Origin: an uncultured Alphaproteobacteria bacterium
Lineage (GTDB): Bacteria; Pseudomonadota; Alphaproteobacteria; Rs-D84
Reading direction: 5' to 3'
NCBI GenBank assembly: GCA_944389495.1
Contig: CALXMN010000007.1
Location: 1 to 43,224, forward strand
DNA: 43,224 bases
Each line of letters starts with the position of its first letter. Positions within the stretch are counted from its first letter, which is position 1. Below the pieces are notes generated by a model. It did not search any database. It was given only the letters and a program-made list of their open reading frames with translations, and was not told the origin of the DNA. Position numbers and translations under genes: made by a program. Below are positions 3,777-39,417 of this stretch, in pieces.

Positions 3777-4058
3777 TTATTCCAACGGACAGGCGGGGGT
3801 AAATTTATATGTGCCGGTTGCGTCGGTGTATTCTGTGTTTGTGGGGGCGTACATTATACACGAACCGGCGGGGGTGGATATCAGGCAACTGGTCGTGGTG
3901 CCAACAGGTGCATATCCCGTGGGACACGATGTGTTGGCAATGGTTATATATTCTTCCACAATCGTTGTATAGTTCGCGGGGCACGATGTGGATGGCACAG
4001 CGGCAAATGTCGCGTATGGCGTAATCGCCAAAAAAAATGTAAAAAATATTTGTTTCAT
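3777..4058 (-). CDS. Small secreted Cys-rich protein, 'CPLE' family, copy 1
   Basis: The product is 93 aa: a signal peptide (about residues 1-19, cleaved near TFA-A) and a mature domain with six cysteines. Motifs include SCP-x-[GN]Y, GSCIMYAP and a terminal G-T-Y-x-[FY]-T-x2-CPLE. Close copies occur at 34247-34525 and at the right window edge (43030-43224). The ATG at 4058 follows a GGGATC Shine-Dalgarno-like sequence and starts a typical signal peptide; longer upstream readings would bury it. The gene lies 13 bp downstream of the 143-aa gene on the same strand, and the same order and spacing recur in copy 2. The pair is therefore an operon and probably a functional unit. Location is inferred to be periplasmic or surface; function unknown. 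Confidence 0.85.
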   Translation of the reverse strand: MKQIFFTFFLAITPYATFAAVPSTSCPANYTTIVEEYITIANTSCPTGYAPVGTTTSCLISTPAGSCIMYAPTNTEYTDATGTYKFTPACPLE

Positions 4059-4071
4059 ATCTGATCCCGTT

Positions 4072-4503
4072 TTAGTCGGATAAATTGCCAAACATTGCCG
4101 TTCGAAATGATTCATTGTCCCGGCTGTCAAGTGCGCAGTCACGTGCACAATTGCGGGCACAAAAGTCCGCATTTGTTATCGTGTTGTGGAACACCAAAGG
4201 TGATACACCGGGTGAAACCAGTTTGCACCAACAATATTTGTCGTCTGTCCCGTTGCTGACAGTCAAGGACGTGGTGGTTTGGCCGTCGATGCTGCCGCTG
4301 GTGCTGGAACATTGGCTTATGCCACTTATTGTGATGTTGGTACCATTGGATGTACAGTTTAAAGTCCAATCAACGGCATAAGCACCGGGATAGACATATG
4401 AACATTCTGTACCGGAATTTAATGCCACACACTTGGTAACGGCCGTGGCGGGCGAGAATGGGAACGTAAACATCAGTCCCACAATTAATAAATGTTTTTT
4501 CAT
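4072..4503 (-). CDS. Secreted Cys-rich protein, 'MKKHLL' family, copy 1
   Basis: The product is 143 aa with a signal peptide (MKKHLLIVGLMF..., cleaved near TA-V, about residue 21). The mature part has a Cys-poor, Ser/Thr/Asn-rich beta-like middle, then a YCWC-[KR]-[LM]-[IV]-SP motif, a CARNCARDCA cluster and a conserved FRTAMFGNLSD tail. The paralogue at 34541-34963 shares signal peptide, CWC motif and tail, while the middle is divergent, as expected for an exposed or partner-specific face. Its start is preceded by GGGAGATAAGAAT. Upstream lies leader RNA copy 1 (4710-4536), whose terminator ends about 33 bases before this ATG, so expression is probably controlled by attenuation. It is the first gene of the pair with 3777-4058. 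Confidence 0.85.
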   Translation of the reverse strand: MKKHLLIVGLMFTFPFSPATAVTKCVALNSGTECSYVYPGAYAVDWTLNCTSNGTNITISGISQCSSTSGSIDGQTTTSLTVSNGTDDKYCWCKLVSPGVSPLVFHNTITNADFCARNCARDCALDSRDNESFRTAMFGNLSD

Positions 4504-4535: not shown

Positions 4536-4710
4536 AAAAAAACACCGGAAAGGTTCAGGTGGTTGGGGTTTAAGAACAATCAGTAGTAATTGCGTGGTTT
4601 ATTCGATATATTCGTCACACCCCAACCGCGTGGGTTGGATCGTTTTTACGTAGTTATGCCAACGCTGCTGATGTGATCCTTAAGCTCGATGTGGGGAAAC
4701 ATCCCGCATC
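4536..4710 (-). promoter_or_regulatory. Structured attenuator/riboswitch-like leader RNA, copy 1
   Basis: Positions are on the minus strand. Hairpin P1 is GATGCGGG (4710-4703) with CCCCACATC (4696-4688) around an ATGTTT loop. The long-range helix pairs TTAAGGAT (4683-4676) with GTTCTTAA (4577-4570), including two G-U pairs that replace Watson-Crick pairs of copy 2. Hairpin ATCCAACC (4640-4633)/GGTTGGGG (4627-4620) is followed by GTGTG...CACGC enclosing GAATA...GAATAA. The later strand ACCCCAACC (4569-4561) can instead pair nine bases with GGTTGGGGT (4627-4619). CACC/GGTG plus seven T (to 4536) resembles a weak terminator. It directly precedes the gene at 4503. Confidence 0.75.
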
Positions 4711-4763
4711 AAGTTAATAATGTCATACGTGGATTGTACTGTTGTTTATATTTGTATCTTTGT

Positions 4764-34246: not shown

Positions 34247-34525
34247 TTATTCCAGCGGACAGGCGGCGGTATATTCATATGTGCCGGTGTTGTCGGTATA
34301 TGTTGTATTTGCCGGTGCATACATTATGCACGAACCCGACGGGCTTGACACCAGACAACTGTCCGCCGTACCGGCGGATGCATATCCCGATGGACAAGAA
34401 CCATCCGCAATATCCATATATTCTTCCACCACCGCGACATAACCCGATGGGCACGAAGTGGACGGCGCGACGGCAAATGATGCACACGGCGCAATTGCAA
34501 AAAATAATATAAAAATTCGTTTCAT
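34247..34525 (-). CDS. Small secreted Cys-rich protein, 'CPLE' family, copy 2
   Basis: The product is 92 aa: signal peptide (MKRIFILFFAIAPCASF..., about 1-20) and the six-Cys mature domain with STSCPSGY, GSCIMYAPANT and the end GTYEYTAACPLE. Very similar to copy 1 (3777-4058), including positions of all mature cysteines. A GGGGTGG sequence before the ATG at 34525 selects that start over the GTG at 34534. It lies 15 bp after the 140-aa gene, reproducing the copy 1 arrangement. Secreted partner of that gene; function unknown. Confidence 0.85.
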   Translation of the reverse strand: MKRIFILFFAIAPCASFAVAPSTSCPSGYVAVVEEYMDIADGSCPSGYASAGTADSCLVSSPSGSCIMYAPANTTYTDNTGTYEYTAACPLE

Positions 34526-34540
34526 ATTCGCCACCCCAAT

Positions 34541-34963
34541 TTAGTCAGACAGATTACTGAACAACGCGGACCGGAAAGACGTAGGGATCTGAGCGTAGTA
34601 CGCACAGTTGTACGCGCAATCGTCCGCGCAAGTATAGGCCGACAAGCTCGCGTTGTTGAAAACCCAGCGCGACACCGCAGGTGAAATCATTCTGCACCAA
34701 CAATATTTGTTATCATCACTGGTTGTACTGATTGTAACGGCGGTGGAGGTTGCACCCTGTGAACCACCGTTTTGCGAACCACAAAATGCAACACCCTGTA
34801 TTGATACGCCACCGCAAGTTGCGGACCAATTTGATTGACCGTGTTCGCCCGAATAAGTGGAACACGTTGTTGATGACGTTAATTTTACGCATTTGGTGAC
34901 GGCAAACGCCGGTGGAATTATGGCCACGCACAGCAGGCCGGCAATTAATAAATGTTTTTTCAT
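34541..34963 (-). CDS. Secreted Cys-rich protein, 'MKKHLL' family, copy 2
   Basis: The product is 140 aa. Signal peptide MKKHLLIAGLLC... (cleaved near AFA-V), mature start VTKCVKL as in copy 1 (VTKCVAL), a divergent Ser/Thr/Gly-rich middle, then KYCWCRMISPAVSRWVF, a CADDCAYNCA cluster and the tail FRSALFSNLSD. The region upstream of the ATG (GGAGATAAGAATATG) is identical to copy 1. Controlled, I infer, by leader RNA copy 2. The middle differs strongly while ends are conserved, which suggests diversifying pressure on the centre. Confidence 0.85.
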   Translation of the reverse strand: MKKHLLIAGLLCVAIIPPAFAVTKCVKLTSSTTCSTYSGEHGQSNWSATCGGVSIQGVAFCGSQNGGSQGATSTAVTISTTSDDNKYCWCRMISPAVSRWVFNNASLSAYTCADDCAYNCAYYAQIPTSFRSALFSNLSD

Positions 34964-34994: not shown

Positions 34995-35167
34995 TAAAGA
35001 AAACCACCAGAAATCTCAGGTGGTTGGAGTTTAAGAACAATCCAATAAATTGCGTGTTTTATTCTGTATATTCAACACACTCCAACCATTATGGTTGGAT
35101 TAGTTTTTCGTCCGTATTACAGACGTATTGGATGGGTTCTTAAGCCCAATATGTGAACACCACATAT
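34995..35167 (-). promoter_or_regulatory. Structured attenuator/riboswitch-like leader RNA, copy 2
   Basis: Minus strand, 5' to 3'. P1 ATATGTG (35167-35161)/CACATAT (35155-35149) with loop GTGTT. Long-range helix TTAAGAAC (35143-35136)/GTTCTTAA (35038-35031), eight Watson-Crick pairs. It encloses CGTCTG/CGGACG (35125-35109), TCCAACC/GGTTGGA (35099-35081) and GTGTGTT/AACACGC (35080-35052) with loop GAATA...GAATAA. Then ACTCCAACCA (35030-35021), able to pair ten bases with TGGTTGGAGT (35088-35079), overlaps the terminator stem ACCACC/GGTGGT (35024-35003). The two states are mutually exclusive. Confidence 0.8.
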
Positions 35168-35219
35168 CAATGTTTATTATTATCACAGCCTGTAAATAAA
35201 TCAACGATAAAATCATTCA

Positions 35220-38864: not shown

Positions 38865-38870
38865 GTATGG

Positions 38871-39049
38871 CGTATCGGCGTGTTACCGGTATGGGGTGTC
38901 ACAACCCGTCAAAACGCGTTTCGCATATGCGAAATGAAAAAATCTCCAACCCGGGGTTGGAGGGTGCTGAATAACCAATAAAGCACACTATTCGTTTTGA
39001 TAGTTGTGAACCTCCAACCCACCTGAAAAAATTTTTTCCGGTGGTTTTT
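38871..39049 (+). promoter_or_regulatory. Structured attenuator/riboswitch-like leader RNA, copy 3
   Basis: P1 TATCGG (38873-38878)/CCGGTA with loop CGTGTTA. Long-range helix TCACAAC (38899-38905)/GTTGTGA (39003-39009), different bases from copies 1 and 2 but still paired. A 16-base perfect palindrome around GCATATGC follows, then CTCCAACC/GGTTGGAG (38944-38962), then GTGCT/AGCAC (38964-38986) with loop GAATAACCAATAA. CCTCCAACCC (39011-39020) can pair ten bases with GGGTTGGAGG. Terminator CCACC-T-GAAAAAA/TTTTTTC-C-GGTGG, then TTTTT (39019-39049). It precedes the Xre gene by 17 bases. Confidence 0.75.
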
Positions 39050-39066
39050 ATTATGGGGGGAAAATT

Positions 39067-39417
39067 ATGGTTGGAATAAAGCACCGGGCGTGTGAATTTG
39101 ATATTAATGCCGGACGGATTATTACAATGCTGCGCACGCGTATGGGATTAAGCCAGCAGGATTTGGGTAAAAAATTGGGCGTTACTTTTCAGCAAATTCA
39201 AAAATATGAAAGTGGAAAAAGCAGTTTAACCGCCGCACGATTGGGCGATGTTTGTCGTGTGTTTGAAGTTTCGCCGGCCGCGTTTTATGACGAAGCAAAT
39301 CGGCCGTATATTAGTGATGGGCATATGATGAAATTAATAAATACCATTTATAAATTACCAAATGACAGGCGTAATATTATTTTGCAAATTGCCACCGCAT
39401 TTCATTTGGCGGGTTAA
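39067..39417 (+). CDS. Xre/Cro-family helix-turn-helix regulator
   Basis: The product is 116 aa, cytoplasmic. An HTH_3 domain lies at about 17-73: GRIITMLRTRMGLSQQDLGK, then VTFQQIQKYESGKSSLTAARL, then VFEVSPAAFYD. The helical C-terminus (KLINTIYKLPNDRRNIILQIATAFHL) is typical of the small alphaproteobacterial Xre regulators. It may regulate envelope or stress genes; its targets cannot be told. A GGGGGG run six bases before the ATG is the likely ribosome-binding site. The gene follows leader RNA copy 3, so its level is probably set by attenuation. It overlaps the convergent lytic transglycosylase gene by 4 bp. Confidence 0.9.
   Translation: MVGIKHRACEFDINAGRIITMLRTRMGLSQQDLGKKLGVTFQQIQKYESGKSSLTAARLGDVCRVFEVSPAAFYDEANRPYISDGHMMKLINTIYKLPNDRRNIILQIATAFHLAG

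Follow-up and report, generated by a model that had tools for sequence, protein, structure and literature searches.

Background

sRNA-Xcc1 (RF02221) has been described as a trans-acting virulence sRNA. The annotated c4 locus of phage P1 runs in the order a1, b1, c4, a2, b2, followed by icd-ant, and Rfam places both C4 (RF01695) and c4-a1b1 (RF03163) there. Trimming by RNase P has been described for C4, and multi-copy, host-encoded C4-like RNAs for Acinetobacter baumannii (PMC5320573). IsrK of Gifsy-1 (RF01394) is a terminated leader RNA that acts in trans (PMC4825925). For sRNA-Xcc1, a symE-sRNA-Xcc1 integron cassette (PMC12444791) and tandem copies in Xylella (PMC12189769) have been reported. 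The analysis presented here joins sRNA-Xcc1, C4/c4-a1b1 and isrK, which are catalogued separately, in one architecture.

The window, a contig of 43,224 nucleotides, belongs to a 0.9-Mb genome of the Candidatus Enterousia type and carries a leader at 34995-35167 on the minus strand, for which a literature search found no earlier description in this bacterial group. With a probability of roughly 0.75, this leader is a diverged C4/sRNA-Xcc1-type antisense RNA that serves as a transcription attenuator; the most likely reading is a self-recognising antisense attenuator of phage ancestry.

Elements of the leader

Every element named by the initial annotation was located in the leader; all coordinates in this section refer to the minus strand unless indicated. 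An extended -10 promoter element, TGTGATAAT, was identified by sequence inspection at 35179-35187, and a -10-like element (at least 5 of 6 matches to TATAAT) was found upstream in 70 of 75 Enterousia-side copies versus about 34 in shuffled sequence, most commonly ending 3-7 nt before the leader element. The 5' hairpin (35147-35169, loop G(U/A)GUU) corresponds to the first hairpin in the Rfam family c4-a1b1; 84% of its cells are paired and 7/7 pairs change on both sides. Its presence had been claimed correctly, while its UGUU loop is not invariant and reads G(U/A)(G/A)UU across copies.

The adjoining small hairpin PA (35134-35147, GGG-CTTAAGAA-CCC) holds the a1 segment inside its loop. PA is paired in 95.8% of cells (alignment A3), with stems GAGG/CCTC, CGTG/CACG and TGGA/TCCA in other copies, and strong covariation is absent because it varies too little. 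The helix PK is formed by a1, TTAAGAAC (35136-35143), and a', GTTCTTAA (35031-35038), with 8/8 pairs changing on both sides among 48 sequences; it is the long-range helix of the initial annotation, here recognised as a pseudoknot because it begins inside the loop of PA. The 5' strand of helix P2, b1, was placed at 35126-35133 by alignment and sequence inspection. It is followed by a variable hairpin, P3 (35109-35125), at the position of which the phage P1 and sRNA-Xcc1 loci have a terminator-like hairpin, and by the hairpin P4 (35081-35099), which sequesters GGTTGGAG, the 5' strand of the C4 closing stem.

The C4-type core (35019-35087) consists of an acceptor-like closing stem GGTTGGAGT/ACTCCAACC, P5, the b' hairpin, a' and a terminal ACC, a layout whose register agrees with that of RF02221 matches in other copies. 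P5 (35052-35080) carries the conserved loop GAAUA..GAAUAA, its sRNA-Xcc1 counterpart being GAAUACAA..GGAAUA. The b' hairpin (35038-35052) reads CAAT-TTATTGG-ATTG, and its stem CAAT/ATTG alternates with CTAT/ATAG and GTAAT/ATTAC among copies; in the locked fold, b1 is the partner of b'. An intrinsic terminator (34996-35024) overlaps the 3' strand of the closing stem.

Two further copies in the window sit where they had been placed, with the base changes between the three copies as claimed. Copy 1 (4536-4711, minus strand; element 4558-4711, terminator 4536-4563) lies upstream of the gene for a secreted protein (4072-4503), and copy 3 (38869-39052, plus strand; element 38869-39023, terminator 39018-39052) upstream of an XRE-family HTH gene (39067-39417).

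Covariation and mutually exclusive folds

When 48 distinct sequences from Enterousia are compared, both sides vary in 36 of the 40 base pairs. The covariation score was 0.590, versus 0.181 for shuffles and below 0.10 for slid partners, the sequences being related rather than independent and the slid control retaining that relatedness. This alignment was fitted to the model and is biased towards it; an unfitted 12-sequence MAFFT alignment agrees (0.408 versus 0.180). The proposal of a selected cis-acting RNA fold is borne out by these scores. The closing stem and the b' hairpin covary as well (0.230 versus 0.088 shuffled), with 97.6% of cells paired; as in C4 RNAs, the acceptor-like stem is followed by CC-ACC, with b' in a hairpin loop and a' after it.

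The strand GGUUGGAG has two partners, the upstream copy (forming P4) or the 3' strand CUCCAACC, and both pairings are conserved and covary; copies with CAGGAG on the shared strand carry CTCCTG in both partners. The alternative 10-bp pairing TGGTTGGAGT/ACTCCAACCA is present, overlapped by the terminator at 34996-35024, and corresponds to the closing acceptor-like stem of the sRNA-Xcc1/C4 fold, the 3' strand of which continues into the terminator. Terminator and antiterminator helices are mutually exclusive, as had been proposed. The overlap of the terminator with this 3' strand occurs in 70 of 75 Enterousia copies versus 3.0 with shuffled downstream sequence, and in 18/19 host copies the P4/locked fold with terminator is favoured over the C4 fold by a median of -9.1 kcal/mol in a comparison that leaves out pseudoknot energy. 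In another family of the order (L109, L118, L124), where this strand reads CCUCCAA, its partner is the Shine-Dalgarno sequence.

Complementarity of a1/b1 to a'/b' is specific to each copy: own partners beat permuted ones in 81 of 83 Enterousia copies, and both helices concerned, PK and P2, covary. The pairing arms diversify with compensation and the copies are therefore mutually orthogonal: of 380 pairs among the host copies, 1 would cross-match in both a and b, as would 5 of 1332 in a second genome (G010). Such compensated diversification would amount to a natural set of orthogonal transcription switches.

Relationship to sRNA-Xcc1

At the gathering score, no Rfam family was found in the window, which agrees with the initial annotation, where the conserved loops were not recognised from any class; below the cutoff, sRNA-Xcc1 does match. 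In permissive Rfam scans, RF02221 matched the 3' half of the leader in three loci. The match had at first been set aside as chance, a reading that was dropped because separate loci showed the match at the same position. In-register matches scored 33.8 bits in L194 and 34.3 bits in L109 (E 3e-4 and 2e-4 over 401 nt), and scores on leader copies were 28-40 bits against a gathering score of 53, which was not reached. At E<1e-4, RF02221 was found at G000:C1:26685-26760, G142:C4:23069-23145 and G142:C2:55363-55436, to which our covariance models R1 or R2 (see below) give 93-115 bits. RF02221 occurs in 58 of 398 genomes of the phylum, a count that includes matches to Enterousia elements also scored highly by R1/R2.

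In the reverse direction, R2 aligned 6 of 30 RF02221 loci in register (E 8e-5 to 0.011); the sRNA-Xcc1 loci are out of reach for R1, which was trained on host copies alone, so that the link between the models requires R2. Three copies in the host genome (L240-L242) match RF02221, one of them (L242) also R2 at E 6.5e-6, and are intermediate between the two.

The core of sRNA-Xcc1 has the same closing stem, P5 with a GAAUA-type internal loop, b' hairpin, a' and ACC tail. Outside the Rfam model, an upstream a1 hairpin, pseudoknot strand and b1 were found in many of the 30 RF02221 loci, and the antisense region beats permuted partners with its own upstream sequence in 28/30 and with its downstream sequence in 25/30. 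In these loci the Shine-Dalgarno region often repeats b1 and sometimes a1, whereas no such target is detectable in Enterousia copies. The Enterousia copies differ further in the overlapping terminator and in the P4 copy of the 3' strand; as a general sRNA-Xcc1 feature P4 is unsupported, exceeding permuted sequence in 13 of 30 loci. By eye, the ORFs that follow the sRNA-Xcc1 loci look similar to SymE and to Bro-N-type phage antirepressors; Pfam confirmed Bro-N only for the phage gene in L182.

The RF02221 model seems truncated (L208-L237), as it leaves out the conserved a1 hairpin, pseudoknot strand and b1 on its upstream side. By implication, sRNA-Xcc1 would be the 3' half of a longer leader, and this leader may control the adjoining gene.

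Relationship to C4 RNAs and other known systems

The P1 locus sequence contains the 5' hairpin, the a1 hairpin, b1 and a core with closing stem, together with an upstream strand that could form 10 bp with the closing stem in the manner of P4. The in-register alignment of R2 to this locus is weak (10 bits, E 0.0087 over 501 nt); our case for common descent with P1 C4 is therefore built on architecture rather than on sequence. The C4/c4-a1b1 RNAs of P1 and P7 share with the leader the 5' hairpin, a1 hairpin, b1, possibly P4, a core with b' and a', CC-ACC, and a promoter directly upstream. Their core sequence is unrelated at the Rfam level, and RF01695 had no match in 40 relatives. The Enterousia leaders also differ in standing before chromosomal surface genes rather than icd-ant and in having no a2/b2 at the ribosome site: a2/b2 targets there exceeded permuted sequence in 47 of 83 copies, which equals chance. 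We therefore class the leader as working like, or derived from, C4 and not as a classical C4 member.

The Group 1 C4-like sRNAs of A. baumannii are likewise multi-copy and chromosomal with variable specificity segments; they are reported as processed RNAs of unknown target and not as terminator-bearing leaders of surface genes (PMC5320573). IsrK, too, is the terminated leader of a phage antirepressor operon, and its short form acts in trans on the corresponding long transcript; it differs in working on translation and in having the terminator ahead of the C4-like part rather than behind it (PMC4825925). The isrK model overlaps a1/b1 of P1 below its cutoff.

Proposed mechanism

The transcript would start at the 5' hairpin and carry its own targets, a1 in a hairpin loop and b1, which match the antisense segments b' and a' in the C4-type core. 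In the default fold, a1/b1 would be paired with a'/b' (PK, P2) while P4 keeps the 5' strand of the closing stem occupied. The 3' strand ...CCUCCAACCACC would thereby be free to form the intrinsic terminator, and the gene would be off. If a1/b1 were captured, or if the core folded first, GGUUGGAG could pair with CUCCAACC, the terminator would be blocked and the gene read. In Enterousia, regulation seems to have shifted from the level of translation to that of termination.

The natural competitor would be the C4 core from the same leader, terminated and possibly trimmed by RNase P, recognising only its own a1/b1 allele. By analogy with IsrK, such a core RNA may capture a1/b1 and so favour read-through; by analogy with C4, RNase P may trim it, and the leader core begins with GG, as at reported RNase P sites (PMC5320573). 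Taken by itself, this trans-acting read-through step is put forward tentatively and is somewhat doubtful; a cis-only switch, or a protein co-factor, is conceivable. What we infer for the model includes the direction of the regulatory effect and the physiological signal. An RNA-based trigger, which the initial annotation had named as a possibility, remains a candidate.

The strongest competing explanation, although an improbable one, concerns P5, the internal loop of which is the best-conserved sequence from Enterousia to the phage and sRNA-Xcc1 copies and for which the antisense model has no need. An RNA-binding protein could read the loop GAAUA..GAAUAA and shift the switch, a function that could be added to a C4 ancestry; no candidate protein was identified, and the loop may be only a structural part of the core.

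Downstream genes

The gene regulated by the leader (34541-34963, minus strand) encodes a secreted Cys-rich protein of 140 aa without Pfam family. Most relatives of this protein (L146-L171) have the same leader just upstream, the named bearers being 'Candidatus Enterousia' and uncultured Alphaproteobacteria. The median distance from leader to start codon is 47 nt (quartiles 41-53). By a simple in-house rule, signal-peptide-like starts were called in 57 of 92 targets versus 10 of 51 background ORFs. Pfam searches of the targets returned XRE regulators, outer-membrane barrels, Stealth and glycosyltransferases, and trypsin-like proteins, with most targets matching nothing; leaders and transcription stop are placed mostly before genes for secreted and surface proteins.

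The targets have no common pathway, which speaks against a metabolite or ion riboswitch, in which the pseudoknotted multi-helix junction would be an aptamer and a ligand would stabilise the locked fold. Such a switch would account for the complex conserved junction and internal loop, the two-state expression platform, and the existence of two platform types, terminator or sequestration of the Shine-Dalgarno sequence (in L109, L118 and L124). Nearly all helical arms vary freely, however, the architecture is common to the antisense C4/sRNA-Xcc1 RNAs, and a scan of divergent copies at E<=1 placed no Rfam riboswitch family at the element. GGDEF (PF00990) and RelA/SpoT (PF04607) domains were not detected in nine genomes of the genus including the host (G000-G008), while searches of control genomes and of other families in the order did find both, and c-di-GMP and ppGpp, two signals common for genes of this kind, look unlikely as ligands. 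We consider a riboswitch very unlikely, and the initial description of a candidate new class with an aptamer-plus-platform layout gives way to the RF02221 match in the 3' half and the complete architecture shared with P1 c4 and with sRNA-Xcc1 loci across Proteobacteria.

If true, the antisense attenuator would explain how dozens of surface proteins are individually controlled in a ~0.9 Mb genome without detectable c-di-GMP/ppGpp synthases. A broader and rather unlikely extension is that phage superinfection-immunity RNAs have been domesticated in reduced-genome Alphaproteobacteria as dozens of orthogonal self-recognising attenuators, giving a per-gene on/off state to surface genes, with orphan arrays as libraries of trans antisense RNAs.

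Similar small secreted proteins (MKQIFFTFFLAI... and MKRIFILFFAIA...) are encoded after both leader-controlled genes (3777-4172 and 34247-34534, minus strand), which suggests a duplicated two-gene unit.

Copy number and distribution

With copy 2, the leader at 34995-35167, as query, BLASTN retrieved 13 host-genome copies at E<0.005, a level far above chance. The covariance-model search of relatives that the initial annotation had suggested was performed with R1, built from 12 host copies; it yielded at least 20 strong copies in the host (E<1e-14) and matches in 45 of 59 relatives, with a maximum of 47 copies in one genome of ~1 Mb. A broader model, R2, was built from 66 sequences, phage copies included, and matches 183/201 genomes of the order and 25/385 genomes drawn from the class, the latter over many families. 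The E-values of both models are rough and the contexts stem from metagenome-assembled genomes.

The copies are dispersed and tandem, in both orientations. Units of the tandem arrays carry promoter and terminator without a gene, score 119-130 bits and differ in compensated stems. A repetitive selfish element (MITE- or recombination-site-like) lying upstream of genes by accident would account for such copies and orphan units, but is hardly credible given the fixed orientation and start-codon distance, own promoter, terminator overlap and two covarying folds. An integron attC site or MITE had been considered because of copy number and arrays; the fixed gene distance, promoter, terminator and covariation argue against it.

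Phage contigs also carry the element (L182 1310-1499; L173 4065-4253 and 8661-8851; L183-L185), and most matches of the 17-base P5 loop on viral contigs were not accompanied by the remainder of the element. The copies in L182 and L173 precede antirepressor-type genes by ~50 nt and are near an integrase, the downstream gene in L182 being Bro-N by Pfam, and the Shine-Dalgarno region in these contigs repeats the 5' strand of P2. Tandem arrays of 2-6 units, with a and b alleles mixed, were seen in L200 (1459-2565), L201-L204 and L137; in L200, L202 and L203, which were read completely, the array ends before a small XRE gene.
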